The notes beneath the pieces were generated by a model, which was given only the letters and a program-made list of their open reading frames with translations, made no database searches and had not been told where the DNA came from. Both the position numbers and the translations under genes were made by a program. A stretch of DNA of 64,000 nt from Heloderma charlesbogerti. Its lineage: Eukaryota; Chordata; Lepidosauria; Squamata; Helodermatidae. Below are positions 11,176 to 63,168 of this stretch, in pieces. The stretch's first letter is position 1, and each line of letters opens with the position of its first letter. The stretch covers positions 806,001 through 870,000 of the forward strand of contig JANEZZ010002205.1 of assembly GCA_026122225.1 (NCBI GenBank). The letters are read 5' to 3'.

Positions 11176-12092
11176 GAATCATAGAATAGTAGGGTTAGAC
11201 CATCGAGTCCAACCCCCTGTTCAATGCAGGAATCCAAGTCAGAGCTAGGGATGGCAGAGAATTCCTCCATGGATCTCGGGGAGGCTGAATGCCAGTGCAT
11301 TTGGCCCCCTAAAATCTGTGGTGGAATGGCCTGGCCCCCCTGCCCCCCCTGCAGATCCCCCCAGGACGAGACTTACCTGGGGCGGATCTTCCGGGTGGCG
11401 GCAGCTCTGGCGGCGGCTTCGGCAGCGGCGGCGGCAGCTGGTCTTCCAACCAGCTGCCACTGCCGCCATTTGCAGTTTTTGTGGCGGCTATGGCCGCCGC
11501 CATTTGCATTCCTTATTTTGGGCTGTCTTACTCTACGTAAATAATTACGTAGACGAAGACGATGAAAATAAGGGGAACGCAAATAGCGTCCGCTATGCTA
11601 TTTGCATTCCCCTTATTTTCGCCGTCATAGTCTACGTAAATATTTACGTAGATTAAGACGGCCAAAAAGAAGGAACGCAAATGGCGGTGGCCGTAGCCGC
11701 TGCCATTTGCGTACGCGGGGTTTTTTTTGGTTTTTTTTTACCCAGAGCCCTCCACAGCCAGAAATCCGGCTGCGGACGGCTCTGGCCTGGCTGGGCTGGG
11801 CCTGGCCGGCTGCTCCGCGGAGCTGCCGCGGAGCACAGCTGGCCACGGAGGATTCCGGGGGGGAGGCACGGAGTGCCTCCCCCCCGGCCAGGATTCCAGG
11901 GGGAGGGACGGAACGCCTCTCTCCCCATCAGCATAATCCACGAAAGGTAAGTGGTTTTCGTACTTCCCTAGTCAGAGCATCCCTGACAAGTGTCTGTCCA
12001 TTCTTGTCTTGAATGCCTCCAGCGTGGGAGAGCCGACCACCTCCCTAGGTAACTGGTCCCATTGTTGTATTGCTCCAACAGTCAGGAAGTTG
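11176..12092 (-). mobile_element. CR1 LINE 3' end, split by a hAT element
   Basis: The CR1 3' UTR (ATAGAATCATAGAATAGTAGG at the terminus) runs to 11245, is interrupted by the hAT element 11246-11970, and resumes with the duplicated GTCAGAGC at 11971 (ATCCCTGACAAGTG, CTTGAATGCCTCCAG). It is non-coding. Confidence 0.85.
11246..11970 (+). mobile_element. hAT-like palindrome-module element, family 1
   Basis: The 725-bp element is flanked by a perfect 8-bp duplication GTCAGAGC (11238-11245 and 11971-11978) and has ends TAGGGATGG...TTCCCTA. The left end carries module A (AGAATTCC..ATGGATCTCGGGGAGGC). The right end carries module C (complement of TACGAAAACCACTTACC..). The core is a chain of short palindromes: CTACGTAAATAATTACGTAG, TACGTAAATATTTACGTA and flanking AAATGGCG/CGCCATTT arms. 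No open frame resembles a transposase. Confidence 0.9.
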
Positions 12093-13194
12093 TCTCAGGA
12101 TCCTCCTCTCATGCATTGAAAGAGCACATGAGGAGGGCCACGGAGCCATGTAGACTAGAAACACCCCCACCCCCGTTGCGTGCCAGCCCGGGCCATTTCT
12201 CTAGCCATCATTCCTCGTAGCAGAAACACATCCATACCATCTACATCTTCACATTCTGTGGGAAAGGGCTTTCCATGTGCGCTGAGGTGCTTGATTCACA
12301 TGGAGAGCTCTTTCCCATTTGCTTCTGAATATACAGATGGCAGGGAAGCTTTTCTGCGGTGGGTATCTGGGGGCGTGGTGATGGTGGTGTTGTGTGTAGG
12401 TGTGTGTATGAGGGTGGCTAGTCTGCATGGCCCCATGACACCCCTCACAAATTCTCTCAATGCATGGGGGTGGGCATGCTCATGTGAATCTCCCTCATCA
12501 GATCAATATGTGGAGGTCAGGGGAAGGACCATCAGACATAATCCCTCCTCTGTGTGTTGATCTAGCCATCTGTATAGGCAAGGACAAACTTCCCTGGTGT
12601 TGGGGTGGGGCGTGTCCACCCATGCTTGGGTCTTATCCAGCAGCCGCCCCTCAAATCTTAGCTGAAGTGTGAACAAAGGCATTCAGGGGCAGTCCTAAGC
12701 TTTCCAAGTATGGGCTGAGCTTTTGGGGGTGGGGAACACAAAGAGTGCATTATCACCGGGTTTATGCTCTTAGCAGCATGAACGCGGCGATTATTTTAAG
12801 TGACAAACTTCTAAAGTCCTAATGGAGAGAGCCGTCCACTAATCTCCTGCTCAGGTCAAGGCTTTAGTGAGCAGGGTTACAACACAATGATTTCTTTTGC
12901 AATCTCTGAATTACATCTGGGTGAAGGGGAAGTGATGTTGTAATCAGGTCTTGTTCGTTTCGCTGCGTTAGGCAGGTCTTTAACAAGGGCTATTCCTCCC
13001 TCCTCCTAAAGCTACTTTTTCTGCCAAGCATTCCTCTGATTCCCTTTTCTAGCATTTCTCACCAAGGACTGGACATCTGGACAATTGCACAAGGTATAAC
13101 GAAGAAAACAAGTTCTACAAGTCCCCCTGCCTCTCTCTCTTGACCCCAGAGGTGTGGGCAAAGTGGAGGTTGTGGCATCCAATTTTACATGAGG
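12093..13194. other. Unassigned intergenic stretch
   Basis: No gene, RNA or confidently named repeat was recognised in this 1.1 kb. Confidence 0.45.
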
Positions 13195-13316
13195 AAAAAA
13201 AAGGGCTTTTTAAGGTGTGCAGCTTGCTCTTTAGACCTTACGGTTTTAAAACATTGTGAACCGCCCAGAGAGCTTCGGCTATTGGGTGGTATAGAAATGA
13301 AATAAATAAATAAAAC
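13195..13316 (+). mobile_element. L2-type LINE 3' terminus
   Basis: The text CATTGTGAACCGCCCAGAG followed by CTTCGGCTATTGGGTGG and an AAATAAATAAATAAA tail is a recurring LINE 3' end in this window (also 24129-24225, 58137-58187 and, inverted, 57538-57600, where it caps an L2 copy). Confidence 0.65.
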
Positions 13317-14186
13317 ATTCATGTTTTTTGGCATGGTAAAACCATGCTGCATCACATCTATTTGAATCCCCTGGTATCAGATGTACAGCTGCAGTTGGGA
13401 TGAATTGGAGGCCATTATGGTCAGAAAAGCAACCTATAAATCAACAACAGCGCAGTAATCTCAAAGTAATAATAAAATCATCTCAAACTGGCCTTGAGTC
13501 GCCATAAACAGTAACATCCTTTTCAAGGTTGTGGCTGTCTGCTTCGATGCCGCACAAGGAGAGCATGGAAGCCCAACTGGGCATCTTCCATCACACTATG
13601 TGTAGACTGCTAGATAGTTGCAAGACTGAATCCTACCATTCCCCCCACCCTCCAAAAAAATAATACTGTGGGGACCATTTCAATGTAGCTGTTGGGAGGG
13701 AACCCGGTGTGTTTTATTTCAGCAAATGTTGAGAAGCAAAGATTACCCCAAATCTCTTGCAATCCACCATACTGGGGATCCCTCTAGTGGTGACTGGTGG
13801 CTTGTGCTGCAATTGTAGCTTTGATCACTACGGGCCTGTTTCCAACATTACATTTCTTTCTAGGTTGGGAGCTGCTTTATTCCTGGTCATACTATTTCTC
13901 CATCTAGCCTAGGATTGTTTACTCTGATTGACAGTAGCTCTCTGGCATTTCAGGCAGAGATCTTTGCTATCACCTGCTACCTGACCCCTTTTAAACTGGA
14001 GATACCATGGACTGAGCAAAGGATATTCTGCATATGAAGCATTAGCTCCACCACGGACCTATGCTCGCTCCTGAGAAGATGCCTTATATTGAATCCAATC
14101 ATTAGGATATTTAGCTCACTACTATGTACTCTTTGGGAGCAGTTCTCCAGTCTCCAGGGCAGGGTTGGAGACTTTTGGGAGTTGTG
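13317..14186. other. Unassigned intergenic stretch
   Basis: Nothing recognisable apart from possible eroded repeats. It contains no exon with plausible splice sites and homology. Confidence 0.4.
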
Positions 14187-14230
14187 CATATGTGGTGTGT
14201 GTGTGTGTGTGTGTGTATGCGTGTGTGCGT
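14187..14230. repeat. (GT)n microsatellite
   Basis: A GT run with GC interruptions. Confidence 0.9.
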
Positions 14231-14278
14231 GCGTGCATTCACCCCCTGGAACATCCTGGGGGCCACGCACTGGCCTTG

Positions 14279-14690
14279 TAGGGATGTCGGAGAAATCTGC
14301 AGCAAAATCAAATGAGTTTACATTCTATGAATCTGACCCACGGATTCCACAGCAGTCCAGCTTTTCCTGCGCTGCATGGAATTTTTTTTTAAAAAAAAAA
14401 ACTTTCCGGAATTTGACACAAACTTAGTCGTAAAAAAAGACGTGAAATTAAAAAGCACTGGCCCTAAAATGCACATTTTCCCCCTAGGCTAAAGCATGAA
14501 AAATGAGCATTTGGGGGAGATTTGTGGAGGGGTGGGGGGATTTGCACATTTCCATGAGTGCAAATTTGCGCAAATGTGAATTTGTGCAAATTTGGGAAAT
14601 TGGGAAAACATCTGTTCCTGCCAATGAGCGGGATGATGGAATGAAAGGCTTCTGGCAATCTTTTTTGTTCCAGCAGGCCTTTGTGAATAG
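14279..14690. mobile_element. MITE with TAGGGATGTCGGAGAA end
   Basis: The left end TAGGGATGTCGGAGAAATC and the interior (AAAATGCACATTTTCCCC, AAATGTGAATTTGTGCAAA) match the repeat at 48306-48716 and, partly inverted, 29045-29387. I could not confirm a target duplication, so the right border is approximate. Confidence 0.55.
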
Positions 14691-14925
14691 ATAGTATGGA
14701 CCGGTGAGAGAATGTGATGGATTGGTACTATTGTTTATATTTTTTTTTAAAAAGTGATATTTTATACAATTCTAATATTATTGATGATTTAACTATATTT
14801 TTTAACTCCTGTCTATTTTGATTTATATGTTTTAACTGTATAAGTTTTTAATGATGTAAAGCCACCTTGAGTCCCAGTATTGGGGGAAAAGGCGGGATAT
14901 TATCATCATGATATCCCGCTGGAAG

Positions 14926-15716
14926 AAATATTAACAATCTCAGATATGCAGATGATACCACTTCGATGGCTGAAAGCGAGGAGGAGCTGAGGAACCTCAT
15001 GACGAAGGTGAAAGAAGAAAGTGCAAAAGCCGGGTGGCAGTTAAACCTCAAGAAACCAAGATTATGGCAACCAGCTTGATTGATAACTGGCAAATAGAGG
15101 GAGAAAACGTGGAGGCAGGTGCAGACTTTGTCTTTCTAGGCGCAAAGATTATTGCAGATGCTGACTGCAGCCAGGAAATCAGAAGACGTTTAGTTCTTGG
15201 GAGGAGAGCAATGACAAATCTTGATAAAATAGTTAAGAGCAGAGACATCACACTGACAACAAAGGTCCGCATAGTTCAAGCAATGGTATTCCCCGTAGTA
15301 ACCTATGGCTGCGAGAGCTGGACCATAAGGAAGGCTGAGCGAAGGAAGATCGATGCTTGTGAACTGTGGTGCTGGAGGAAAATTCTGAGAGTGCCTTGGA
15401 CTGCAAGAAGATCCAACCAGTCCACACTCCAGGAAATAAAGCCAGACTGCTCACTTGAGGGAATGATCTTAAAGGCAAAGCTGAAGTACTTTGGCCACAT
15501 CATGAGAAGACAGGACACCCTGGAGAAGATGCCAAGGCTAGGGAAAGTGGAAGGCCAAAGGAAGAGGGGCCGACCAAGGGCAAGATGGATGGATGATATT
15601 CTGGAGGTGACGGACTCGACCTTGGGGGAGCTGAGGGTGGCAACGGCCAACAGGAAGCTCTGGTGTGGGCTGGTCCATGAAGTCACAAAGAGTCGGAAGC
15701 GACTGAATGAATAAAC
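14926..15716 (+). pseudogene. RTE-type LINE, 3' part of reverse transcriptase
   Basis: The frame encodes RT motif YADDT (about 14943-14957) and then, after a frameshift near 15040-15055, a 226-codon frame with DADCSQEIRRRL, RDITLTTKVRIVQAMVF, TYGCESW and WTARRSNQ to the natural end KSRKRLNE and an AACAACAAC tail. It is a BovB-related RTE subfamily distinct from the BovB copies at 30 kb and 42 kb, and the same subfamily as 20798-21928. It lacks the endonuclease and N-terminal RT. Confidence 0.85.
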
Positions 15717-15720
15717 AACA

Positions 15721-16474
15721 ACAATCGTCATCATCAAAATGAAGATGGAATGGATTTTACAGATTCCATACATCCCTTCTCCCCTCCCACCAAATTTGCT
15801 GCAGCACCAGCGACAATGCTCCCAACTATTTTAGAAGGAAACAAGGCGTGTGGAGAGCTGTTCAATTCGGTATCACAAACATTCCACATGGACTCAGTGT
15901 CCACTGCCGACAAAAAGATTTCTGCAGTCTTGGTGGTATCACTTAAAGATGGATTTGGGAAATGAAAACCATTCTCGCCCACTTTGTATGGTGCTACCCT
16001 TCGCACCTTGGAGAGCTCCTTTAGAGTTCTGACTGAAACCTGGAGCAGATTCGCCACCCCACTGACATTGCAGCTACCAGCCTCCACTGGTAAAATGGTT
16101 TGTGTCGGGCTCAGGCTCAACACCCCTAGAGCTGGTGCATGAGGTGTAAGCATGCACACTGTGCAAATGATGCCTACAAAAATTCTGTCTTTACTCAAAA
16201 TAATTCTGGCATCCAGGCTAAATGTCTGCCTTTTCCACAAACAATTCCAGAAACAGGCCCAGAATTTGAAACGCCACTTTCATCCAGAGTATCTGGTCTC
16301 GTATTTTTCACTCTCTCTCTCTAGGACTTATGTGGCTGGTAACTCTGCATGCAACAATGGTGCATTGGTGGGGCTCTTGTGTCAGAGAGTCATGGAGTAT
16401 GAATGTAACGTATATTGTTGATAAGAAGTCACTGTATTTATAAGAGTGCTATTCATAACAATCTGTGTATTTTA
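15721..16474. other. Unassigned stretch with a repeat related to 5504-5684
   Basis: 15790-16105 shares CTCCTTTAGAGTTCTG and CAGCTACCAGCCTCC-type text with the foldback element at 5504-5684. Nothing else is recognised. Confidence 0.4.
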
Positions 16475-16838
16475 AGAAGAGAAGACTGAGGGGAGATATG
16501 ATAGCGCTCTTCACATACTTGAAAGGTTGTCGCAGTGAGGAAGGCCAGGATCTCTTCTCGATCATCCCACAGTGCAGGACATGGAATCATGGGCTCAAGT
16601 GACAGGAAGCCAGGTTCCGGCTGAACATCAGGAAAAACTTCCTGACTGTAAGAGCAATACGACATTGGAACCCATTACCTAGGGAGGCGGTGGGCTCTCC
16701 CTCACTGGAGGCATTCAAGATGAGGCTGGACGGCCATTTGTCAGGGATGCTCTGACTTGGATTCCTGCATTGAGCAGGGGGTTGGACCCGATGGCCTTGT
16801 AGGCCCCTTCCAACCCTACTATTCTATGATTCTATGAG
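16475..16838 (+). mobile_element. CR1 LINE 3' end
   Basis: This is the last RT codons plus the 3' UTR of CR1 (AAGAGAAGACTGAGGGGAGA, then GATGGCCTTGTAGGCCCC, ending CTATTCTATGATTCTATGA). It is 5'-truncated. Confidence 0.88.
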
Positions 16839-18188: not shown

Positions 18189-18254
18189 GACTTTAGGACG
18201 TTCCTTCAGCCTTCAGGGGTGGGCAGCCTTTTTGCTCATCCCCCCTTCACACAT

Positions 18255-18347: not shown

Positions 18348-18391
<44 letters not shown>

Positions 18392-22430: not shown

Positions 22431-22873
22431 TAGGGGTGGACGAAAGTCACTTACCTGTCCTCGAAGGACGTTCGCGGTGGGGGGGAGGCGCTTCGCTGGT
22501 CCCCCCGCGAAGTTCAGGCCGGGGGGGGAGGCTTCCTGCCTCGGCCCGGCCGAAATTCAGGCCGGGGGGAAGGCTTCCCGCCTCGGCCCGGCCGAAATTC
22601 AGGCCGGGGAGGAGGCTTCCCGCCTCGCCCGGCCGCGAACGCGAAAGTTTTTTGTTTTTTTTTAAACGCCCCCTGATAGGCTACGTGACGATTCACGTAG
22701 CCTATCACGGCTAGATCTGCAAAGTCAGCCGTGATAGGCTACGTCAATCGTCACGTAGCCTATCATGGGTGACTTAAAAAAAAAAAAAAAAGCGCGTACG
22801 CTAATGGTGGCCCCCATAGGGAGCCGCCATTCGCGTTCCTTATTTAGTCGCTGTAGTCTACGTAAATGTTTAC
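22431..22873 (+). mobile_element. hAT-like palindrome-module element, truncated
   Basis: It begins TAGGGGTGGACGAAAGTCAC (module B) and carries GC-rich AAATTCAGGCCGGGG repeats and the palindrome TACGTGACGATTCACGTA. It stops abruptly in CTACGTAAATGTTTAC near 22873. It is almost identical to the first half of 23045-23934. Confidence 0.75.
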
Positions 22874-23044: not shown

Positions 23045-23934
23045 TAGGAGTGCACGAAAGCCACTTACCTGGTCTCACAGCTTTTTGCGGTGGGGGGGAG
23101 GCGCTTCGCTGCTCTCCCCCCGAAGTTCAGGCCGGGGGGGGGAGGCGCCTCGCCTTGCCCGGCTGCGAAATAAAAAGTAAAAAAAAAAAACGAAATGCCC
23201 CCGTTATAGGCTACGTGACGATTAACGTAGCCTATCACGGCTAGATCTGCAAAGTCAGCCGTGATAGGCTACGTCAATCGTCACATAGCCTATCACGGGT
23301 GACTTTAAAAAAAAAAAAAAAGCGCGTACGCTAATGGCGGCCCCCATAGGGAGCCGCCATTCGCGTTCCTTATTTAGTTGCTGTAGTCTACGTAAATGTT
23401 TACGTAGACTACGGCGAAAATAAGGGCAACGCAAATAGCGTTGCCCTTATTTTCGCCGTAGTCTACGTAATCTTTATGTAGACTACAGCGACCAAATAAG
23501 GAACGGGAATGGCGACTCCCTATGGGGGCCGCCATTATCCGTACACACTTTTTTTTTTTTTTTAAAGTCACCCGTGATAGGCTACATGACGATTCACGTA
23601 GCCTATCATGGCTGACTTTGCAAATCTAGCCGTGATAGGCTACGTTAATCGTCACGTAGCCTATCACGGGGGCGTTTTTTTTTTTACTTTTATTGGAATG
23701 GCGGTGGCGGCAGCCGGTCGAAAGACCGGCTGCCGCCCCTGCCCCTGACGAAGACCCGACGAACCGCCGCCGGGACCCGCCGCCGGGAGGGACATTCGGG
23801 AAAGGTAAGTCCCGTCCGGGGGGGGGGCGGGGGGCGGGGGGGCGGAGAATTTCTCTACGAAACTTCTTCGGGGGGCCAAACACGTTGGCGCTCGGCCCCC
23901 CGAAGTTTCGGGGAGAAATTCTCCGCCAACCCTA
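23045..23934 (+). mobile_element. hAT-like palindrome-module element, 890 bp
   Basis: Module B is at the left end (TAGGAGTGCACGAAAGCC) and module A inverted at the right (GAGAAATTCTCCGCCAACCCTA). The 8-bp duplication GTCGTAGG/GTTGTAGG (23037-23044 and 23935-23942) has one mismatch. The core has at least five palindromes, including CTACGTAAATGTTTACGTAG, and two copies of TGATAGGCTACGT..ACGTAGCCTATCA. It is inserted in a repeat related to 4608-4740. Confidence 0.85.
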
Positions 23935-29775: not shown

Positions 29776-30213
29776 TAGGGATGTCAGAGAATTTCGCCAC
29801 GAATCTCGGGGAGGCCGAATGCCAGTGCATTCGGGCCCCTGAAATCAGTGGTGGAACGGTCTGCCACCCCACTCCCCTGGGATGGGACTTACCTTGGGCG
29901 GATCTTCCTGGCAACGGTGGCTCTGGTGGCGGTTTGGCCGCCGCCGCCATTTCCAGTTAAAAAAAACAAAAAACAAAAAAACGTGATAGGCTACGTAAAG
30001 ATTTACATAGCCTATCATGGCTAGATTTTCAAAAAACACTGTGATAGGCTACATAAATGTTTACGTAGCCTATCACGGCTGATTTAAAAGAAAAAAAAAC
30101 ACGCGTGTACGCAAATGGCGGCGCCCATGGGCACCGCCATTTGCGTTCCTTATTTTGGCATGTCTTAGTCTACGTAAACATTTACGTAGACTAAGACAGC
30201 GAAAATAAGGGGA
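29776..30213 (+). mobile_element. hAT-like palindrome-module element, right-truncated
   Basis: It starts TAGGGATGTCAGAGAATTTC with module A. Inside are palindromes TACGTAAAGATTTACATA, TACATAAATGTTTACGTA and CTACGTAAACATTTACGTAG. It ends at the BovB insertion near 30214, so its right terminus is lost or displaced. Confidence 0.8.
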
Positions 30214-32029
30214 AGATATACCCAAATGAATGCAGATTTCTAGAGAATAGCAAGGAGAGACAAGAAGGCCTTCTTAAATGAACAATGCAAAGAAATCAAG
30301 GGAAACAATAGAATGGGAAAGACTAGAGATCTCTTCAAGAAAATCGGAGATATCAAGGGAACGTTTTGTGCAAAGATGGGCACGATAAAGGACAAAGAAG
30401 GCAGGGACCTAACAGAAGCAGATGAGATTAAGAAGAGGTGGCAAGAATACACAGAAGAACTATACAGGAAAGCTCTGAATGTCCCTGATAGCCATGATAG
30501 TGCGGTCACTGAACTTGAGCCGGACATCCTCGAGAGTGAAGTCAAGTGGGCCTTAGGAAGCATTACTAACAACAAAGCTAGCGGAGATGACCGTATTCCA
30601 GCTGAGCTATTGAAGATCCTAAAAGATGATGCTATTAAAGTGCTGCATTCAATATGCCAACAAATTTGGAACACTCAACAATGGCCACAAGACTGGAAAA
30701 GGTCAGTTTACATTCCAATTCCAAAGAAGGGCAACGCCAAAGAGTGTTCGAACTACCGTACAATTGCGCTCATTTCACATGCCAGCAAGGTGATGCTCAA
30801 AATCCTACAAGCTAGGCTTCAGCAGTATGTGAACCGGGAACTACCGGAAGTACAAGCTGGGTTCCGAAGAGGCAGAGGAACTAGAGATCAAATCGCCAAC
30901 ATTTGCTGGATCATGGAGAAAGCAAGAGAATTCCAGAAAAAATGTATATTTCTGCTTCATTGGCTACGCTAAAGCCTTTGATTGTGTGGATCACAACAAA
31001 CTGTGGAAAATTCTTAAAGAGATGGGAGTACCAGACCACCTTACCTGTCTCCTGAGAAACCTGTACGAGGGACAAGAAGCAACAGTAATAACTGGACATG
31101 GAACAACCGATTGGTTCAAATTTGGGAAAGGAGTACAACAAGGCTGTATATTGTTGCCCTGCTTATTTAATTTATATGCAGAGTACATCATGAGAAACGC
31201 CGGGTTGGATGAATCACAGGTTGGAATTAAGATTGCCGGGAGAATTATCAACCTCATATACACAGATGATACCACCCTAATGGCAGAAAGCGAAGAGGAT
31301 CTAAAGAGCCTCTTGTTGAGGGTGAAAGTGGAGAATGCAAAAGCTGGTTTGAAACTCAACATTCAAAAAACGAAGATCATGGCATCTGGCCCCATCACTT
31401 CCTGGCATGTAGAAGGGGAAGAAGTGGAAGCAGTGACAGATTTTACTTTCTTGGGCTCCAAGATCACCGCAGACGGTGACTGTAGCCATGAAATTAAAAG
31501 ACGCTTGCTCCTTGGGAGGAAAGCTATGGCAAACCTAGACAGCATAGTAAGAAGCAGAGACATCACCTTGCCGACAAAGGTCCATCTAATCAAAGCTATG
31601 GTTTTCCCAGTGGCAACATATGGCTGTGAGAGCTGGACTACAAGGAAGGCTGAGTGCCGAAGAATTGATGCTTTCGAACTGTGGTGTTGGAGAAGACCCT
31701 TACAAGTCCCCTGGACTGCAAGGAGGTCAAATCAGTCAATCCTAAAGGAAATCAACCCTGAGTGCTCATTGGAAGGACAGATACTGAAGCTCAAATATTT
31801 GGCCACCTAATGCGAAGAGAAGACTCACTGGAAAAGCCCCTGATGCTGGGAAAGATTGAAGGCAAAAGGAGAAGGGGACGGTAGAGGATGAGATGGCTAG
31901 ATAGCATCACCGATGCAATGAATATGAACTGGAGCATGCTCTGGGAGAGAGTGGAGGACAGGAAGGCCTGGTGTGCTCTGGTCCATGGGGTCACGAAGAG
32001 TTGGACACGACTTAATGACTGAACAACAA
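30214..32029 (+). pseudogene. RTE-BovB LINE, RT and 3' end, AADACL intron 1
   Basis: About 1.8 kb of BovB. The first frame (to about 30960) has NNKASGDDRIPAELLK and SNYRTIALISH. After a frameshift at about 30955-30985 the second frame holds AKAFDCVDHNKLWKI, the RT catalytic region, GDCSHEIKRRLLLGRKA and WTARRSNQSILKEINP. A small deletion near 31800 ends that frame. The catalytic motif reads YTDDTT (about 31257-31274) rather than the usual YADDT, as in the 42-kb copy. It ends in the BovB tail with AACAACAAC at 32029. It lacks endonuclease and is inactive. RTE-BovB is well known for transfer between squamates and ruminants. Confidence 0.92.
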
Positions 32030-37478: not shown

Positions 37479-39130
37479 CAGTCAGGGCCAGAAATATTGG
37501 AACAAGGATAACTGTTTTGGCAGTTGGCCTCTGTACACCACCACATTGAAGTTGAAAGGAAACACACCCAGATGGGAGCGAAGTCAGGACGTTCAGCTGT
37601 AATTCAAGGTGTTTGACAAAAGTGGGGCACTAACCATTCAGGAAGGACAGCCAGTGGCACACACACACACCCATCGTTGGTGGCTCAGAAGTAATGGAAC
37701 GAATGGCTGGCAAGCAGCTGCATGGCCAGGTGTGGCCTGCTTCCTGGGTGCCCCATGACCAATCAAGCAGAGAAAAGGCCTGGAGGTGGTTCTGAGTGTT
37801 ACATTGGCGTTTGGTAGCTGTTCACTGGAACTCCCAACATGAGGTCCAAAGAGGTGTCCATGCGAGTGAAGGAGGCCATCATTAGGCTGAGGAAACAAAA
37901 TAAACCCATCAGAGAGATCGCAAAAACAGTGGGAGTGGCCAATTCAACAGCTTGGAACGTCCTGAAAAAGAAGGAAATAACTGGCAAGCTCAGCAACAGC
38001 AAAAGGCCTGGAAGACCACGGAAGACAACTAAAGTGGATGACCACAGAATTCTACTCATGGTGAGGAGGAGCCCTTTCACAACATCTAACCAGGTCAAGA
38101 ACCCTCTTGAGGAGGTAGGCATGTCATTGTCAACATCTACAGTCAAGAGACGGCTTTATGAATGTAAATACAGAGGCTTCACAACAAGGTGCAAACCACT
38201 GGTAACGTGCAAGAACCGAAAGGTCAGATTAGCTTTTGCCAGCAAACACCTAAAAAAGCCTGCCCAGTTCTGGAATAAGATTCTTTGGACTGATGAAACC
38301 AAGATTAACTTGTGCCAGAATGATGGGAAGAGAAAAGTATGGCGAAGAAAAGGAACAGCTCATGATCCAAAGCATACCACAGCATCTGTCAAACATGGTG
38401 GGGGCAGTGTTATGGCATGGGCATGTATGGTTGCCAATGGCACCGGGTCACTGGTGTTTATTGATGACCTGACTGATAAAAGCAGTAGGACGAATTCTGA
38501 AGTGTATAGGGCTATACTTTCTGCTCAGATTTAGCCGAATGCTGCCAAACTGATAGGACGCCGCTTCATATTGCAGATGGATAATGACCCAAAACATACA
38601 GCAAAAGCTGCCCAAGAGTTTCTGAAGGCAAAGAAGTGGGATGTTCTTCAATGGCCAAGTCAATCACCTGATCTCAGCCCAATAGAGCATGATTTTCACT
38701 TACTGAAGACAAGACTGAGGGCAGAAAGACCCACAAACAAGCAGCAGCTGAAGGCAGCTGCAGTGAAGGCCTGGCAAAGCATCTCGAGGGAGGAAATTCA
38801 GCTTTTGGTCATGTCCATGGGTTCCAGACTTCAGGCAGTCATTGACTGCAAAAGATTTTCATCCAGGTATTAAAGGCGATCCTTAAGTTTGAAATGATGT
38901 TGGTTTGTTCCATTACTTATGACCCCCAATGATGGAGGGGGGGGCTGTATGCCACTGGCTGTACTTCCCAAATGGTTAGTGCCCCACTTTTGTCAAACCC
39001 CTTTAATTACAGCTGAAAGTCCTGACTTCACTCCCATCTGGGTGTATTTTCTTTCAACTTCAATGTGGTGGTGTACAGAGGCCAACTACCAAAACACTTA
39101 TCCTTGTTCCAATATTTCTGGTGCTGACTG
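37479..39130 (+). mobile_element. Tc1-like transposon, nearly intact (1652 bp)
   Basis: The element is flanked by TA on both sides (37477-37478 and 39131-39132), the Tc1/mariner target duplication. Terminal inverted repeats are about 224 bp (37479-37702 and 38907-39130), beginning CAGTCAG and clearly alike across their length. A single transposase frame fills the interior. It landed in the tetranucleotide array, whose repeats continue on both sides. Confidence 0.96.
37839..38873 (+). pseudogene. Tc1-like DD34E transposase, one nonsense codon
   Basis: The frame from ATG 37839 to TAA 38871-38873 is 344 codons, the usual Tc1 transposase length. It is broken only by TAG at codon 232 (38532-38534). 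Residues 10-46 form the first helix-turn-helix (REIAKTVGVANSTAWNVL). GRPRK at 58-62 is the AT-hook-like linker, followed by the second HTH (SLSTSTVKRRL). The DDE triad is D152 (WTDETK), D248 (DNDPKHT) and E283 (SPDLSPIE), with 34 residues between the last two, which is the DD34E class. It binds the inverted repeats and cuts and pastes at TA sites. As it stands it would make a protein lacking the last two catalytic residues. Confidence 0.95.
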
Positions 39131-40120: not shown

Positions 40121-40802
40121 TAAGGATGGACGAAAGTCCCTTACCTGGTCCCGCAGATTGCTTCGCGGTGGGGGGGAGGCGCTTCGGTTCTCCCCCCGAA
40201 GTTCAGGCCGGGGGGGAGGCGCCCCATACCTCGCTGCCGAAATTCAGGCTGGGGAGAAGCGCCCCGTCTCCTCGGCCGCGAAATAAAAAAGTAATAGCGT
40301 TACCCTTATTTATTTATAAATAGTGTTGCCCTTATTTTTGCTGTAGTCTACGTAAATCTTTACGTAGACTACCCGGGCCCAAATAAGGAACGCAAATGGT
40401 GGCACCCATGGGCGGCGCTTTTTTTTCCCCCCCAAAGTCACCCGTGATAGGCTACGTAACGATTTACGTAGCCTATCATGGCTGACTTTGGAAATCTAGC
40501 CGTGATAGGCTATGTAAATTGTTACGTAGCCTATCATGTGTGTGTGTGTTTTTACATTTACTTTGTAATGGCAGTGGCGGCAGCCGGTCGGAAGACTGCC
40601 GCCGCCCCCGCCCCCGCCGAACTGCCGCCGAACCGCCGCCGGGACCCACTGCCGAGAGGGACATTCGAGGGAGATAAGTCCCATCCTGGGTGGGGTGGGG
40701 TGGTGGTGGGGTGACGGAGAATTTCACCGCCAATTTTGGGGGGCCGAATGCGTTGGCATTTGGCCTCCCCGAGATGCGTGGAGAAATTCTCTGCCATCCC
40801 TA
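40121..40802 (+). mobile_element. hAT-like palindrome-module element, 682 bp
   Basis: A perfect 8-bp duplication GAAAACAA (40113-40120 and 40803-40810) flanks ends TAAGGATGG and CCATCCCTA. The left end is module B (GACGAAAGTCCCTTACCTGG) and the right is module A inverted (CCTCCCCGAGATGCGTGG). The core has CTACGTAAATCTTTACGTAG and paired TGATAGGCTACGTAA.. palindromes. The only frames are GC-rich artefacts. Confidence 0.93.
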
Positions 40803-46411: not shown

Positions 46412-47167
46412 TAGTGATGTATGAAAGTCACTTACCTGGTCCCGCAGCTTGCTTCGCTGTGGGGAGGAGGCGCTTCGGTTCTCCCCCCGAAGTTCAGGCT
46501 GGGGGGGGAGGCGCCCCGCCTCGCCAAAATTCAGGCCGGGGGGGAGGCGCCCCGCCTCGCCCAGCCGAAATTCAGGCCAGGGAGAAGCGCCCCGTCTCCC
46601 CGGCCGCGAAATAAAAAGTGAATGGGGAAAAAAAAACCCACCCGTGATAGGCTACGTAACGATTAACATAGCCTATCACGGCTAGATTTCCAAAGTCAGC
46701 CGTGATAGGCTATGTTAATCGTTACGTAGCCTATCACGGGTGACGTTGGAAAAAAAAAAAAAGTGTGTACGCAAATGGCGGCGCCCATGGGCGCCGCCAT
46801 TTGCATTCCTTATTTGGTCCCAGGTAGTCTACGTAAAGATTTACATAGACTACCGCGAAAATAAGGGCAACGCTATTATTAATCATTACGTAGCCTATCA
46901 TGGGTGTTTTTTGTTTTTTGTTTTACTTTATTTTGTAATGGCAGTGGCGGCAGCCGGTCGGAAGACCGGCCGCCACGCCTGCCCCCGCCGAAGCGCCGCC
47001 GAAACACCGCCGGGACCCGCCGCCAAGAGGGACATTTGCAGGAGGTGAGTCCCATCCCGGGGTGGTGGTGGTGGGGTGGCGGAGAATTTCACCAACAATT
47101 TCGGGGGGCTGAATGCGTTGGCATTCGGCCTCCCCGCGATTCGTGGAGAAATTCACGGCCATCCCTA
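46412..47167 (+). mobile_element. hAT-like palindrome-module element, 756 bp
   Basis: Ends are TAGTGATG and CATCCCTA. The 8-bp duplication CCCCTAAT/CCCCCAAT (46404-46411 and 47168-47175) has one mismatch. Module B is at the left and module A inverted at the right, as at 40121-40802. Core palindromes include TACGTAAAGATTTACATA and the GC-rich GGCGGCGCCCATGGGCGCCG. Confidence 0.9.
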
Positions 47168-49110: not shown

Positions 49111-49795
49111 TAGAGATGTTGGAGAATTCTGCCATGGACTCCAGTGAGGCTGGATTCGAACGAATCCGTGGCAGAACGGGGCAATCCCCCCTGCCACCCC
49201 GCAGAATCCCCCCAGGAGGGAGCCTACTTGGCTCTGGCGGCGGCTCCGGTGGCAGTGGCGGCTCTGGGGGATCTTCCGGCTGCTGCTGAGCTGCGGCTGC
49301 AAATGGTGGCCACTACGCTGGCCGCCATTTGTGTCCCTGCCAAGCTGTGATAGGCTACGTAAGTATCTACGTAGCCTATCACGGCAAAAGGCAGGGACGC
49401 AAATGGCGGCCGCTATGCCATTTGTGTCCCTGCCTTTTGCCATGATAGACTACGTAGATACTTACGTAGCCTATCATGGCTTGGAAGGGACGCAAATGGT
49501 GTAGTGGCCGCCATTTGCGTTCCTGCCTTTTGCCGTGGTAGGCTACGTAAATATATATGTAGCCTATCATGGCCTCCGCAAGGACGCAAATGGCGGCTGC
49601 TACAGTGGCCGCCGTTTGCAGCTGGTGCAGCCCAGCAGCAGACAGAAGTCCAGCTGCGGGCGGCCGTGGGTGGCCCTGGCCGGCGGCTCCATGAAGTTGC
49701 CGTGGAGCGGAGCCGGCCGGGGAGGATTCTGGCAGGAGGGACGGAGCGCCTCCCCCCCACTGCGGATGCCCCCACCTGGAATGAGTACATCCCTA
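49111..49795 (+). mobile_element. hAT-like palindrome-module element, 685 bp
   Basis: A perfect 8-bp duplication AATGAAAC (49103-49110 and 49796-49803) flanks ends TAGAGATG and CATCCCTA. Module A is at the left (GAGAATTCTGCCATGGACTC) and module C inverted at the right. The core is a chain of TACGTAAGTATCTACGTA, TACGTAGATACTTACGTA and TACGTAAATATATATGTA palindromes alternating with AAATGGCGGC/GCCGCCATTT arms. Confidence 0.93.
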
Positions 49796-50092
49796 AATGA
49801 AACATACAGAACATTTCTAAGAAAGGAAGTTCTTAATTCAAATCACATTTCCGCTGTGTGAAGGAGCCCATTTTAATTCCCCAAATAACTGGAAGCAGAA
49901 AGCCTCAATAAGAATGTGGGATTTCAGCTTCATGTGAAACAGTCCTATTGGCCTACTGTCGTAGGGCAGTGGTTGTTGGTTGGACAGCGGTTGGGAGCAA
50001 CGGAGGGGACGATTTAAGTTCTGAGATCACAGTTGTGTTGAAAGTGCATGGTATAAATTGAGAAATTTAGAAATCAATACAATTCTCTCCAG

Positions 50093-50867
50093 ATATCGCC
50101 TGTCTCCCGAGTACCTCTATCCCACACAGTGGAAGGACTGCTTCACTGCTACTGTGCACTTTGTGCAAAATGCAGAGCTCTACGGGGTGGATCCTTCTCA
50201 GATCATCATCAGTGGGGACAGCATTGGGGGCACTATTGCTAATGTGATTGCCCAAAACCTGGTAGAGAGATCAGACCTCCCAAAGCTACGGGCTCAAGTG
50301 CTGATCTATCCTGGGCTGCAAGGAATGGACTTCAACCTGCCTTCCTATCAGCAGAACTGCTCAATGCCGCTCTTGTTCCGGGAGAATCTTATTCTTTTTG
50401 GTCTGCAGTATTTTAGAAAGGACCCTTCTCTGAAGGAGGATGTGTTGAAGGGATCTCATGTGCCAGGTGAAATGAGGCTGAAATATAGGAAGTGGGTGAA
50501 TCCAGACAACGTTCCAGAGGAATTTAAGCGCCAAGGCTGTGAAAGAGTGCCCCTCGCGCCTTATAAGCCTGATGTGTACAGGCAGTGGCCAGAGCTGCTG
50601 GACCCCTCCCTTTCTTCACTTTTTGCTGAAGACTCCATCATCCAGCAGCTCCCGGAGACTTTAATTGTGAGTTGCGAGTACGATGTACTTCGAGATGACT
50701 CCCTGTTGTACAAGAAACGGCTGGAAGACAACGGTGTGAAAGTCAGCTGGTTCCACGCTGAAAATGGGTTCCACGGTGTGCTGAACCTCTCTGACTGTGG
50801 CATTTTGACATTTGCTGCTGCAATAGAAATATTGGACAGCATTGTTGACTTTGTCAAACATTTATGA
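50093..50867 (+). CDS. AADACL4: AADACL4-like hydrolase, exon 4 (terminal)
   Basis: This exon encodes residues 153-410 and TGA (50865-50867). The acceptor is TTCTCTCCAG|A, completing Gly153. It carries the YR motif (154-155) and the nucleophile elbow GDSIGG with Ser196 (family GxSxG). Asp350 of CEYDVLRDDSLLY and His380 of NGFHGV complete the catalytic triad. RAQVLIYP (219-226) and LLYKKRLEDNGVKVSW (357-372) are strongly conserved in AADACL3/4. All catalytic positions are present, so an active ER-lumen lipid/ester hydrolase is predicted; the substrate is unknown. A family-1-like hAT and other repeats lie just upstream, and a TAGGGATGG repeat starts 24 bp after the stop. Confidence 0.92.
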
Positions 50868-57054: not shown

Positions 57055-57062
57055 GTTTTAAC

Positions 57063-57472: not shown

Positions 57473-57537
57473 ATGGTTTTAATAAACCAAATTAATTTTA
57501 TGAACATTTAGAACTTTCAAGGCTTATAATTCTTATT

Positions 57538-59010
57538 ATTCATTACATTTCTATACCACCCAATAGCTGAAGCTTTCTGGGCAGTTTACAAAGATTAAAA
57601 ACATCAAAGTACAATATACAGAGCTTTAAAATAATTTACATAAAAACACATGAACAGACAATATACACAAAAGAAGCATATATCTAAAACAACTTCAAAC
57701 AATCTCAGAAGCAAACAATCATAACCATAAGACATTCCAGGATCGATTAAAACTTATCATATGCTGCCAAATCCCTGGGAGAAGAGAAAGGTCTTAACCT
57801 GGTGCCAAAAGGATAATAATGTTGGCTCCAGGTGGGCCTTGTTGGGAAGATCATTGCATAATTTGGTGGCCACCACCGAGAAGGCCCTCTCCCTTCTTGT
57901 TGTCTTCTGAGCTTCCCTCAGTGTAGGCAGCTGGAGGAGGGCCTTAGATGTCAAGCGTAGTATATAGGTAGGTTCATGATAGGAGAGATGCTCTGTCAGG
58001 TAGTGTGGTCCCAAGCCATGTAAGGTTTTACAGGTTAAAACCAGCACCTTGAATTGGGCTCAGAAACATACAGGCAGCCAGTGAAAGCTGTCCAGAGTTG
58101 GTCTTATATGTTCAGACCTTCTGGTCCCCATTATCAGAGAGCTTCAGCTATTGGGCGGTATAGAAATTAATTAATTAATTAATTAATTCAATCTGGCTGC
58201 TGCATTTTGCACAAGCTGCAGCTTCTGAACAGTCTTCAGAGGCAGCCCCACATAGAGCGCATTGCAGTAATCTAACTTGGAGATTACCAGAGCACAGACA
58301 ACTGAAGTCAGGTTATCCCTGTCCAGATAGGGGTGTAGCTGCCTAGCTGGGCCACCAGCCAAAGTTAGTAGAAGGCAATCTGTGCCACTGAGGCCACCTG
58401 AGCCTCAAGTGACAAAGATGGCTCCAGGAGGACCCCCAAGCTACGGACCTGCTTCTTCACGGGGAGTAAACCCCATCAAGAACAGGTTGAGCACCCTCCA
58501 TCCAGTCAGAAGAACCACCAACCAACAGCATCTCAGTCTCGTCTGGATTGAGTGTCAGTTTATTAGCCATCATCCAGTCCATTGGTGCAGCCAGGCACCA
58601 ATTTAGCACATCCACAGCCGCTCATGAAGATGATGAAAAGGAGAAATAGAGCTGCATGTCATCAGCATACTGATGGCAATGCACCCCAAAACTCCGGATG
58701 ACCACACTCAACAGTCTCATGCAGATGTTAAATAGAATGGGGGACAGAACTGACCCCTGCAGAACCCCCTACTGGAGAATCCATGGGGCCGAGCAACATT
58801 CCCCAAGCACCACCTTCTGGAGCTGACCCTCCAAGTAGGAGTGAAACCACTGTGATGCAGTGCCTCCCACTCCCAGCTCAGACAATCATCCCAGAAGGAT
58901 ACCATGGTCAATGGTACTGAAACCCGCTGAGAGATCAAGAAGAATCAACCAGGTCACACACCCTCTGTCTTTCTCCTGACATAGGTCTCGGGAGACAGGT
59001 GATACCTGGA
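57538..59010 (-). pseudogene. L2 LINE, decayed RT and 3' UTR
   Basis: Read leftwards: LILLDLSAGFSTIDHGIL (about 58960-58890), an RT catalytic HQYADD near 58670, ANKLTLNPDETEMLLVG (about 58575-58520) and the C-terminal TCKTLHGLGPHYLTEHL with RAFSVVATKLCNDLP (58040-57860). The 3' terminus at 57538 is the same end seen at 13195 and 24129. Many frameshifts and stops are present. A plus-strand L2 3' end is nested at 58137-58187. Confidence 0.8.
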
Positions 59011-59050
59011 GAGGCAGAATACAGAAGCAAAATGTTAACTTTCCAGAATC

Positions 59051-59053
<3 letters not shown>

Positions 59054-59108
<55 letters not shown>
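59054..59108. repeat. (GA)n microsatellite
   Basis: An uninterrupted AG run of about 55 bp. Confidence 0.97.
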
Positions 59109-59111
<3 letters not shown>

Positions 59112-59611
59112 TGGTACAAATTTGGGCAGTACGATTCAAATTCAAATGCATATGCAGCTTGCATGATTTCAATCCGAAATTCGAAATAACTTCTAAACCT
59201 CAAGATTCAAAATGAAATGTTTAGTGTAAATTTTAGACCTGAGGACTCATTTTGGACTGGACCTATTGGCCCTTGTAGAACTATTTGCATGTGAGAGAGA
59301 GTGAGCGTGTATGTGTTTACTTATCAGTGCCTTGTGACAGCAGACTACTGCTGTTGCGTGCCTGGCTGACTCTTCTCCCAGGTTACACTTTCAGGTTGGG
59401 AGACAACTTTTCTTGCCTTTTTTGGGGTGGGGTGGGGGTGAGGCCTTTTCACTTCCCCCTGATATGACCTTTCTTTCTGGCTATTCTCACCATGCATGTT
59501 CTTGTTCTTGTTCTAAATTCTAATTACTTTACAATTCGCAAATCCACCCTTGTTCTCTGCTTTATACTAGTGTTACTTCAATGTCACTTCAGCACTTCAA
59601 TGGGAGAATTT

Positions 59612-59651
<40 letters not shown>

Positions 59652-60205
59652 TCAAAATGGACCCGTGTAATTTCTGCCAAGAAAGCTTGGTTTCCTTCCT
59701 TGCACGTGGCAGACATAGTACAGCTATGGATTTTTTTTTTAAAATCTCACCCGTGAATCCCCCTTTTTTAACCTCTTCCTATCCTGCCTAGCTCAGGATG
59801 GCGTCTTCAGCCTCTCTGTATATAAAGAGGACTGGCCCTTCTAATATCGGTTTATCTTGCCACATCAAACTGCAAGGGTGTGAAGGGTCTGATCTACAAA
59901 TATTTCTTCCACATTTGAGGAAAGGGACACTGGGGAGATACTGAAGACAAACCTGATTTCAGAACTGGAGAGAAATTGGAGAGAATGCTGATGTTGCAAG
60001 AAAGCTGGCGTGGTGTAAACGGCTTGGTAGGGTCATATCTGCAAGTCAACCTTTCGGTGACTTGCCATAGATCAACAAGGCTTTCTGACTTCCAGTTGGT
60101 TTAACAGTTGCTAAACACAAAACAGTGGCTTGGAAAACAAAGAAAGCTTGGGGGGAAATCAGGAATGGATTTGTGTGTAGAAGGGCCCAGAATTCTAGTC
60201 TGTGG
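59109..60205. other. Unassigned stretch with a (TTTC)n microsatellite
   Basis: The TTTC run lies at about 59609-59654. No gene or named repeat was recognised elsewhere here. Confidence 0.45.
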
Positions 60206-60213
60206 GGGAAAAC

Positions 60214-60673
60214 TAGGGATGGGCAGATTCCCTACCTGTCGATCTGTGGGGGAGGCGATCCGTCCCTCCTCTGGAATCCGTCCAGGCTGGCTCTGCTCCA
60301 CGTCGATCCTGCAGGGCTGGCCGCCAGCTCTGCATTGCTGGTGAAGGTCGATATGGCCAGCAGCCATTGCCGTGCTGTATTGCTGTCTAAGTAAGTCTCC
60401 AGAAGCAAATGGCATAGTGGCTGCAAATGGCACCCACTCCGCCATTTGCATCCGGAGACTTACTTAGCACAGCGATACAGCACAGCTGCTAGCCATATCA
60501 ACATCTGCCAGTGATGTGGAGCAGGTGGCCGGCTCTGCAGGATCGACGCAGAGACAGATCCGACCCAGATGGATTCCGGGGTGAGTGCTCTGTTCTGCCA
60601 TGGGCCCCAATGGGGCCGGATTCTTGGAAACCGGCCTCATTGGGGTCTGTGGCGGAATTCTCCCCCATCCCTA
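60214..60673 (+). mobile_element. hAT-like element, family 1 relative (460 bp)
   Basis: A perfect 8-bp duplication GGGAAAAC (60206-60213 and 60674-60681) flanks ends TAGGGATGG and CCATCCCTA. The left end is module C (GCAGATTCCCTACCTGTC). The core is one large palindrome around AAATGGCA/TGCCATTT and CTTACTTAG-type arms, without the TACGTA units of other copies. Confidence 0.9.
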
Positions 60674-61219
60674 GGGAAAACAAATCCTGGACTGAGCATG
60701 TGTACAGAAGGCACGCTGGTCCTTGCTTCTAATATCCACCCACTGGAGCTGTTTTGCACCTGGCACCTGTTTGTGGACGTTAGTATTCTAATAAAAAAAG
60801 AAAACAGAGACTGCAAGGTTGACATCTTCCCATCCATGGGATATGGCTGGGGTGGGGAACGTATTTGGATATGGGGTCCAGATTTCCATGCCCTCCATGG
60901 AGCCCCTCTGGGCAGGATGATGTCAGTTGGTGGAGTCCCATCTGTAAGGTCTCAGGTGGGCCCCTGCCATCACTGGTTCCCTAGCTGAAATGCCAGATGG
61001 AGCTCCTGCAGATGGTGCCTTGGTTGGGGAGCACAGGGAATGCGACAGAGGAGCAAAATGGACTCACTGGTTTCACTCCTCCTTCACTTTCCTCATGTGG
61101 GGAAAGTGACGGAGGTGCAAAGCAACTGAGCCATGGCTTAATTGCTCTCCCAGCCCTTCTCCCTTCTGAGGGATGGGGCTTAGCAGGCTCCTGAATGCCT
61201 ATTGGAGAGGGCAATGTCA

Positions 61220-61340
61220 CATTTTATTTTATTTTTATTTATTTTATTGCATTTATACCCCGCCTTTTTTCCTCTTGCAAGGAACCCAAGGCGGCTTACA
61301 TTATCCTCCTCCTCTCCATTTTATCCTCACAACAACATTC
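61220..61340 (-). mobile_element. Core-SINE 3' half
   Basis: ATTTATACCCCGCC, CTTGCAAGGAACCCAAGGCG and TTATCCTCACAACAAC match the 3' part of the SINE at 35600-35822. Confidence 0.65.
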
Positions 61341-61599
61341 AGAAAGAACTGCTGGGCTGGAGAAAAGTCCCGGGGCTCCTGCAAGTGCAGGAGGGGTGTG
61401 TGTGTGTTTTTAAAAAACCCACCAGAAAGAAGACCCCTCCAGAACTGCCTACACTTAAAAAAGGTATGTGGAAACCCTGTCCCAATCCCCAAGGAGAAAA
61501 TCCCCTGAAATCTCACCCCGCAAGCCTCTTTTGTCAGAGTTTTCTCTCCCTCCCCCAAATGCTGCAAATGGAAGAATCGGAATTTTCGGCACAGCATTA
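61341..61599 (+). mobile_element. hAT-like family-2 fragment
   Basis: The right end TTTTCGGCACAGCATTA matches the family-2 terminus. The left part is missing or replaced by the SINE. Confidence 0.5.
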
Positions 61600-61872
61600 G
61601 TTCCACATCCCTCCGCTAAGGCGTTAGACTAAGACCAAAGAACCAGCTTAGCTTTGAAGATCCCTAAGAGACTTTTGGCCTGTCTTTCAGCCTGCCCTAA
61701 TCCACAGGATTGTTGTGAGGATAATATTGGTCATTGGGCAAGGAGAAACACATATCTGAACCTCTTGGTGGATATAAATATTATATTTGTCTGGAAAAGA
61801 TGAGCAGTTTTGTATCACTCCTACCCTAAAAAGCATTCTTCCCTGAAAAACAAGTGCTGACTGGTTCGCTAA

Positions 61873-61933
61873 TCGTAGAGTTGGAAATCACATTAGAGGG
61901 CATCTAGTCCAACACCCTGCTCAATGCAGGGAT
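61873..61933 (-). mobile_element. CR1 3' terminal scrap
   Basis: AATCGTAGAGTTGG, CATCTAGTCCAACACCC and TCAATGCAGGGA. It is diverged. Confidence 0.65.
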
Positions 61934-61943
61934 ATAATGGAAC

Positions 61944-62515
61944 TAGGGATGGTGGGGAATTCCACCACGGACTCCAATGAGGCCAGATTCTAAAGAATCC
62001 AGCCCCCCAGAGTCCGTGGCAGAATGGAAGGCTTACCTCCGCCTCCCCTCAGAATCTTCTTTGGCCGGTTCCTCCTGCTCCAGATTTCCGGCAATATGGC
62101 CACCATGCCGTATCGCTAGCTGAAGGGACTGACTGCGGACGCAAATGGCGTCCAGGATGCCATTTGCGGCTGTAAAGGCCGTAGTTAAAGGTAAATGCAG
62201 CTGTAAATTTGCGTCTGTGCTTTTCATTCACGCGATAGGCTACGCAAATATTTGGGTAGCCTATCACGTAAAACAGGGATAAAAACGGCCATGTACGGCT
62301 GCATTTACCTTAAACTAAGGCCTTTACTGCCACAAATGGTGTCCTGGATGCCATTTGCGTCTGCAGTCAGTCCCTTCAGCCAGCGATATGGCATGGCGGC
62401 CGTATCGCTGGAAATTTAGAGCTGGCCTGCGGCTCTGTGGAATCGTGGCAGAGCGGAGCTGGCTGAAGAGGATTCCGGGGGAGGAACGGATCACCTCCTT
62501 GTCGTGGGCAGATTC
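61944..62515 (+). mobile_element. hAT-like family-1 element, right end altered
   Basis: It begins TAGGGATGGTGGGGAATTCC (module A) after AATGGAAC. It has the palindrome GCGATAGGCTACGCAAATAT..TAGCCTATCACG and ends in a module-C-like AACGGATCACCTCC..GGGCAGATTC without the terminal CATCCCTA. The next element starts directly at 62516, so the right terminus seems lost at the junction. Confidence 0.75.
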
Positions 62516-63168
62516 TAGGGATGTCAGAGAATTCCGCCACGGATCTCGGTGAGGCCAAATGCCAGTGCATTTGGCCCTCCGAAATCTGTGGTGGAACGGC
62601 CTGCCCCCCACCCCCCGCCCCCCCCCCCACGGATCCCCCCCGGATGAGACTTAACTGGGGCGGATATTCCAGGCTGTGGCGGCTGCGGTGGCTGGTCTTC
62701 TGACCGGCTGCCACCGCCATTTGTCTTGTAAAAAAAAAACAACCCCCCCCCCGACGTGATAGGCTACGTAAAGATTTACATAGCCTATCATGGCTAGGTT
62801 TAAAAAAAAAGAAAAAAAAGACGTGATAGGCTACGTAAATCTTTACGTAGCCTATCATGGTTGGTTGGGTTAAAAAAAAACAAAAAAACCTCGTACGCCA
62901 ATGGTGGCGGCTATGGCCGCCGCCATTTGCGTTCCTTCTTTTTACCGTCTTAAGCTACATAAATATTTACGTAGATTATGACAGCGAAAATAAAGGGGAA
63001 CACAAATAGCATAGCGGGCGCAATTTGCGTCCCCTTTTGATTCGCCATTTTACCCTACGTAAAGATTTACGTAGGCTAAAACGGTGAATCAAAAAGGGAC
63101 ACAAATAAGGGGCAGGGGCTGGGCGGGAGTCTGGAGAACCCAGACAGGGATGAGTTTGCACATCCCTA
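62516..63168 (+). mobile_element. hAT-like palindrome-module element, 653 bp
   Basis: Ends are TAGGGATGTCAGAGAATTCC (module A) and GCACATCCCTA. The core holds TACGTAAAGATTTACATA, TACGTAAATCTTTACGTA and TACGTAAAGATTTACGTA palindromes. A clean 8-bp duplication was not found, probably because the left flank is another element. Confidence 0.8.

Follow-up and report, generated by a model that had tools for sequence, protein, structure and literature searches.

Outward-facing donor-like sites at the two ends of an abundant hAT-type foldback element in Heloderma charlesbogerti

A 64-kb stretch of the Heloderma charlesbogerti genome (positions 806,001 to 870,000 of contig JANEZZ010002205.1, in an assembly of 2.302 Gb and 3246 contigs; hereafter the window) contains ten copies of a short repeated element. 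An initial annotation had described six of them as complete, with TAGGGATG/CATCCCTA-type termini and 8-bp target-site duplications (TSDs), and a scan of the window found all six where they had been placed, four with a perfect TSD and two with one mismatch. A stricter scan recovered five of these six copies, named E1 to E6, and missed E2. The truncated or fused copies annotated at 22431, 29776, 61944 and 62516 are also present (Table 1); the last two are joined head to tail over 61944-63168 without a target duplication, and the first of this pair lacks its terminal 8 bp. We report that the element has a fixed polarity in the copies examined, with two different ends, and that each end typically carries a 9-bp sequence resembling a 5' splice site (a donor-like site) directed out of the element.

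Table 1. Copies of the element in the window and their outward donor-like sites. A, long hairpin end; B, short end; the slash in a site marks the putative exon edge.
Feature	Coordinates	Strand	Remarks
E1, complete	11246..11970	+	A left, B right; TSD GTCAGAGC, perfect
E1 site CAG/GTAAGT	11371..11379	-	near A end
E1 site AAG/GTAAGT	11944..11952	+	24 bp from B end
Truncated copy	22431..22873	-	B end retained
Site CAG/GTAAGT	22449..22457	-	B end
E2, complete	23045..23934	-	B left, A right; TSD with one mismatch; core a ~515-bp nested foldback
E2 site CAG/GTAAGT	23063..23071	-	B end
E2 site AAG/GTAAGT	23802..23810	+	A end
Truncated copy	29776..30214	+	A end retained
Site AAG/GTAAGT	29887..29895	-	A end
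E3, complete	40121..40802	-	B left, A right; TSD GAAAACAA, perfect
E3 site CAG/GTAAGG	40139..40147	-	B end; A-end site decayed
E4, complete	46412..47167	-	B left, A right; TSD with one mismatch
E4 site CAG/GTAAGT	46430..46438	-	B end
E4 site GAG/GTGAGT	47042..47050	+	A end
E5, complete	49111..49795	+	A left, B right; TSD AATGAAAC, perfect; strong outward donor at neither end
E6, complete, short	60214..60673	-	B variant ("C") left, A right; TSD GGGAAAAC, perfect
E6 site CAG/GTAGGG	60230..60238	-	B end
E6 site GGG/GTGAGT	60578..60586	+	A end
Copy with A end, fused to next copy	61944..62515	+	no TSD found
Site GAG/GTAAGC	62031..62039	-	A end
Copy with A end, degenerate right end	62516..63168	+	no TSD found

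Two different ends and a fixed polarity

The A end begins with TAGGGATG, followed by a hairpin of about 90 bp, a C-rich run and then typically GACTTACCT. The B end also begins with TAGGGATG, typically followed by nACGAAA and then CACTTACCT. In the 34 oriented copies defined below, the two ends agree at 94% for bases 1-8, at 48% for bases 9-15 and at 30% for bases 16-40; the sub-terminal sequence is indeed no inverted repeat, as had been noted at the outset. It had also been proposed that three end modules occur in different left/right pairings. Once the complete copies are re-oriented, so that E1 and E5 read from A to B on the plus strand and E2, E3, E4 and E6 do so on the minus strand, every one of the six pairs one A end with one B end. 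The third module, "C", is a variant of B: the left end of E6 has a mean score of 19.2 against B ends and 12.1 against A ends, and the right end of E5 is likewise B-like (23.2 versus 5.0). Only the right end of the copy at 62516 scores nearly equally against the two (8.0 versus 8.5).

Pairing of A and B profiles in 20 fetched stretches of 9.9 kb plus the window, with flanks shared within two mismatches and one-base shifts allowed, gave 27 copies, all of them A-B or B-A; a few of those accepted with two mismatches or a shift may have paired by chance. Since the B profile includes the donor-like site, the search was repeated in a donor-blind manner on 41 sequences (307,339 bp), in which ends were set by termini resembling TAGGGATG (no more than two mismatches in either and three in total) and a target duplication (at most one mismatch) alone. 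This yielded 40 elements, 36 of them with two or more TACGTA. The A profile matched exactly one end in 34 of these 36 copies, which constitute the oriented set, and none had two A ends. The remaining two (L019 3914 and L031 672), which the A profile missed, are A-type by eye, starting with GAGAATTCC, and were excluded from the donor counts. The oriented set retains L026 4050-5257, which belongs to another family, has a family copy nested within it and is donor-less at both ends; the set lacks E2, which has too many terminal mismatches, and E6, which has no TACGTA. No A-A or B-B copy was found among the 27 profile-paired and 36 duplication-defined copies. Moreover, the subtypes of the two ends are linked: when A2-B2 was compared with all others in the 34 copies plus E2 and E6, 34 of the 36 were concordant (Fisher p 1.3e-7, uncorrected for descent).

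The initial annotation had explained the apparent variety of ends by chimerism, with end modules freely swapped through template switching during gap repair. Certain observations do fit exchange. Of the first 100 places listed for the B-type 15-bp terminus, 8 (L012 4575 included) continue into A-type sub-terminal sequence, and 2 of the 36 subtype pairs are discordant, so that a degree of exchange has occurred at the outer ~15 bp; the A-type hairpin is, in addition, common to other families. On the other hand, no A-A or B-B copy turned up among those examined and the subtypes are linked, and we regard free swapping as very improbable. Three free end modules were rejected on the re-orientation together with this linkage. 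Thus, the interchangeability of ends is mostly an artefact of orientation, and what survives of it is the limited exchange at the outermost bases.

Five elements of other TAGGGATG families that share the A-type hairpin end lie in the window, at 14279 (+), 29383 (-), 34488 (-), 47976 (-) and 48306 (+); their interiors differ and they carry no outward donor of at least 8.5 bits.

Classification, copy number and core

The element is almost certainly a fixed-polarity foldback miniature inverted-repeat transposable element (MITE) of hAT type. Termini of hAT elements start with YARNG, and those found here read TAGGG; the perfect terminal inverted repeat measures 8-9 bp in 19 of the 34 oriented copies, 15 bp in one and less in 14. 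The 8-bp TSD of the complete window copies is found in most profile-paired copies of contig C1 as well (at most two mismatches); the oriented copies were selected for it. Ac-group elements prefer nTnnnnAn as a target, and the second position of the TSD is T in 19/34 copies and the seventh is A in 15/34. Foldback elements of the FB/Galileo type have long inverted repeats that extend to their termini, whereas the longest self-complementary stretch is here internal and the ends diverge past base 8. The oriented copies are short (656-1231 bp), numerous and conserved at their termini, and they file as MITEs, presumably non-coding. According to PMC3517528, terminal inverted repeats of hAT elements are short (5-27 bp) and the TSD of the Buster group is nnnTAnnn; the latter preference is not seen here (T at position 4 in 8/34, A at position 5 in 13/34). 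The MITE interior is described as typically AT-rich in PMC3942097, but whole copies have here a GC content of 0.50-0.61 and an observed/expected (o/e) CpG ratio of 0.65-1.20. The TSD and the termini support the non-autonomous hAT-type identity first suggested. The exact core pattern had 0 matches in a viral-contig collection and 0 in a genome-contig collection, and a structured RNA family was rejected as an alternative identity, with 0 of 4227 Rfam families reaching the gathering score in the window.

One 16-mer from the core palindrome has 225,408 exact matches genome-wide (reversed control 0 and 1), and the 15-bp B-type end has 45,100 (controls 3 and 3). Because the exact 15-bp B end is present in 16 of the 34 oriented copies, these matches point to a family of the order of 10^5 copies, a rough extrapolation from a sample chosen by its core and from a terminus that in 8 of 100 listed places is backed by A-type sequence.

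The core had been described as a run of separate short palindromes. Its palindromic nature stands out far beyond chance: single-strand folding gave z-scores of -19.1 (E1), -34.0 (E2), -11.3 (E3), -11.2 (E4), -22.2 (E5) and -14.6 (E6), and in no case did one of the 20 shuffles (100 for E6) fold as well as the copy itself. The palindromes exist; they are nested, however, and not merely separate, which rules out an arrangement of separate short palindromes only. Small palindromes (TGATAGGCTACGT...) pair by twos into palindromes of about 100 bp, and E2 has two such blocks in the arms of a foldback of about 515 bp, in which arm pairs of 153 bp and 65 bp enclose small palindromes. In 34/34 oriented copies there is an inverted self-match that is 60 bp or longer, with a mean span of 41% of the copy. 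Arm-to-arm identity averages 80.0%, compared with 81.2% to the best other copy, and the arms are the closer pair in 20/33; since the arms are about as alike as the nearest copies, concerted homogenisation or recent arm-to-arm conversion is unsupported.

The target duplication and the termini suggest that the element would be mobilised in trans by a hAT transposase. None was found in the 20 frames scanned of the 91 open reading frames listed for the window. Genome-wide, hAT transposase frames are plentiful: 150 of 871 candidates for the hAT dimerisation domain were scored, with frames of up to 908 aa. No A or B ends of their own were seen at 10 hAT transposase copies viewed downstream (8 aligned) or at two followed further out. 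The hAT family with frames of ~879 aa was rejected as the partner: its downstream TACATCCCTA is internal, because the sequence continues alike in other copies, and the fetched stretches contain no A or B ends of its own. The exceptions near such frames are L058, into which a family copy has inserted, and L053, at whose edge lies a weak, incomplete match to A (E 0.093). Several hAT transposase copies in L049-L062 are ~95% or more alike and lie inside a long repeat that extends past the stretches fetched. Other features of the window are a Tc1/mariner-type transposase frame (HTH_Tnp_Tc3_2) at 37818-38534 (+), six frames with reverse-transcriptase matches and, ~230 bp past E5, a stop-to-stop frame at 50025-50867 (+) that matches Abhydrolase_3 (E 8e-34) and is likely a host gene exon.

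Outward donor-like sites

Donor-like sites were scored with a matrix of general vertebrate splice-site weights rather than fitted ones, and 9-mers resembling a 5' splice site were counted when they reached 8.5 bits. In the window, where the terminal 140 bp of A ends and the terminal 40 bp of B ends were searched, an outward site is present at 6/9 A ends and 6/8 B ends; inward sites number 0/9 and 1/8. Dinucleotide shuffles predict outward sites at 0.41 of the 9 A ends and 0.16 of the 8 B ends. No outward donor was found at the 7 ends of other TAGGGATG families in the window.

In the oriented set, the outward donor is present at 29/34 B ends and 26/34 A ends, as against one inward site in 34 at each, and of the 64 donor-grade 9-mers in these copies 55 are at the two outward positions. 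The site lies 22-25 bp from the B end (24 bp in 25/29) and 94-134 bp from the A end. B ends were also collected by their outer 15 bp alone, using the same 100 listed places (contigs C1-C3) with the 8 A-type ones put aside. An outward donor is present in 79 of these 92 and an inward one in 0, compared with 1.3% of shuffled tails; it lies 20-28 bp from the end, at 24 bp in 65/79. Distinct tails gave 49/60, and 61/72 (a hand count) remained without the 21 of the 100 places that fall inside stretches already in the oriented sample. The 13 donor-less ends include GT changes, variants just below the cut-off and short deletions.

The pattern of change within the site was also examined. In the alignment of the oriented copies, the donor columns are conserved at 92.9% (B) and 87.9% (A); the first 15 columns reach 94.1%/91.4%, and the remaining columns 77.0%. 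Across 36 copies, 37 of the 72 ends have exactly AAG or CAG followed by GTAAGT. Splice sites tolerate changes at -3 and +6, and 20 of the 35 changes at ends with one or two of them fall at these positions (7 ends with 3-4 changes were excluded). The sequence fits the U1 consensus as represented in the scoring matrix, and we think that the motif is probably a real 5' splice site.

A conserved motif inverted near the two ends would, however, also be expected of a transposase-binding site. According to this main rival, the ACTTACCT block would be a sub-terminal sequence bound by the hAT transposase or by a host factor, and its likeness to a donor would be coincidental. Conservation close to the termini, the inverted arrangement and the near-fixed spacing at the B end all agree with it. 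Coincidence would have to explain, though, why the block is identical to the top-scoring donor 9-mers of the matrix and why its changes fall mostly where donors tolerate them; the distance from the A end is, besides, variable. The site is present in only 3 of 12 A-profile matches with fewer than two TACGTA (one of the three being E6) in the larger sample, so A-type ends can do without it, with the proviso that those families may use another transposase. We consider a binding site unlikely.

Possible roles of the two ends

The DNA between the donor-like sites is rich in CpG. CpG-island values (GC above 0.5, CpG o/e above 0.6, length above 200) are found in 33/34 oriented copies, and the ten window copies have a CpG o/e of 0.51-1.22, compared with 0.31 outside copies; the lowest value is that of E6, and the window copy T2 has a GC content of 0.478. 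The motif ATGGCGGC, which we take to be YY1-like, is present in 32/34 oriented copies, and all 11 occurrences of AAATGGCGGC in the window lie inside copies. Near the ends (up to 260 bp away), A[AT]TAAA occurs once on the outward strand and 12 times on the inward strand (non-independent counts). Two donors that face away from a CpG-rich centre are as expected of a divergent promoter with two first exons.

The best explanation, on which we find the balance even, is that these copies form one large non-autonomous hAT-type clade of fixed polarity that serves as a mobile, bidirectional first-exon and promoter cassette; the first-exon and promoter role taken by itself we propose slightly more tentatively. 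The clade is MITE-like, mostly of 0.65-1.2 kb and with copies of the order of 10^5. Its A end consists of an 8-bp terminus and the ~90-bp hairpin, its B end of a short terminus of 8-15 bp, and the nested foldback that separates them has abundant CpG and YY1-like motifs. The core may drive transcription in two directions, with each flank serving as a first exon whose donor sits close to the margin of the element; transcripts would then run out of the element at either side and be spliced to host sequence. The trait, of presumed benefit to the element, may have been retained in the lineages that amplified. The anatomy, the polarity within the sample, the placing, direction and conservation of the donor-like sites and the CpG and motif content are observed, whereas transcription, use of the donors, the benefit and mobilisation in trans are inferred.

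A different use of the same donors has to be weighed: the element could be an exon cassette in either direction, with an outward T-tract/AG acceptor, the GC-rich flank as an internal exon and the outward donor, which would be exonised upon insertion in introns. Acceptor-like sites of at least 10 bits number 44 outward and 18 inward (28 and 8 at 12 bits or more), and the implied exons are mostly about 100-310 nt. After the T-tract, however, AG occurs at 44.9 per 1000, GT at 58.7, CA at 47.3 and AC at 42.6; AG is no commoner than GT or CA and about as common as AC, therefore only the T-tract is oriented. Acceptor sites failed this dinucleotide control as independent evidence, and palindromy couples the two arms. 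An exon cassette is in our judgement improbable.

Several points weigh against a first-exon and promoter role. The oriented T-tracts yield outward acceptor-like sites that are equally compatible with a cassette exon and a first exon, and the binding-site rival accounts for a conserved inverted motif near both ends. A strong donor is missing at 8/34 A ends and 5/34 B ends, and both E5 and the copy at 62516 are without a donor at either end. A coding first exon starting at the YY1-like ATG was rejected: the frame is open to the donor in only 18/45 cases and no frame is conserved. The high CpG content may simply reflect young, GC-rich copies. Finally, the sample was picked around matches to the core 16-mer on one contig, and the copies are kin by descent, so that the counts are not independent.

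Known systems resemble the element in part. The L1 antisense promoter and the YY1-dependent L1 promoter are mobile promoters with a YY1 site and outward chimeric transcripts. In the role proposed, the present element would share all three features with them; the L1 promoters are one-sided parts of an autonomous retroelement, whereas this promoter would be symmetric and borne by a DNA transposon. Galileo-type foldback elements also have long internal self-complementarity, but their repeats reach the ends, while those described here are internal and the two ends differ. The hAT MITEs Mar and those derived from BuT2 have in common with our copies an 8-bp TSD, short termini, an apparent lack of coding sequence and a high copy number; their origin is attributed to internal deletion of a parent (PMC3517528, PMC3942097). 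Unlike them, the present element has a palindromic GC- and CpG-rich interior rather than an AT-rich one, no parent was found in the searches described above, and its TSD does not fit the Buster nnnTAnnn. Splice sites at hAT termini have their closest precedent in maize Ds and Ds1, where the layout differs. As described in PMC5432752, Ds1 has three donors and two acceptors, with the reverse pattern, within 35 bp of its termini, and Ds prefers donors from the beginning of the insertion. Ac/Ds and Ds1 are similar in being of hAT, non-autonomous type, with donors tens of bp from the termini, and in being able to join host transcripts, as we propose here (PMC5432752). Unlike Ds1, the present element typically has a single donor-like site at each end, the two pointing outward on opposite strands around a CpG-rich nested foldback core. 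No title or abstract opening among the papers listed by the literature searches announces such a structure, and a named Dfam or Repbase entry may exist; the available part of PMC6050309 has the whole word "hAT" 0 times.

A further, doubtful but possible step would be to regard the ~10^5 copies as mobile, strand-symmetric CpG-island promoters. In each, a YY1-bearing nested foldback would initiate transcription in both directions, and one U1 site per arm, close to the margin of the element, would let an insertion send spliced transcripts to either side; the family would have been selected for this as an anti-silencing strategy that keeps copies accessible to the transposase. If the motif is not a splice site, a 9-bp sequence equal to the best donors and kept for transposition would still predict collateral exonisation. 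If the donors work, about 10^5 insertions would each bring a first exon or exon that is splice-competent in two directions, and the family would supply new promoters and chimeric transcripts on a large scale. It would then offer a natural test of whether U1 sites and CpG content suffice for a productive two-way promoter carried by a transposon.

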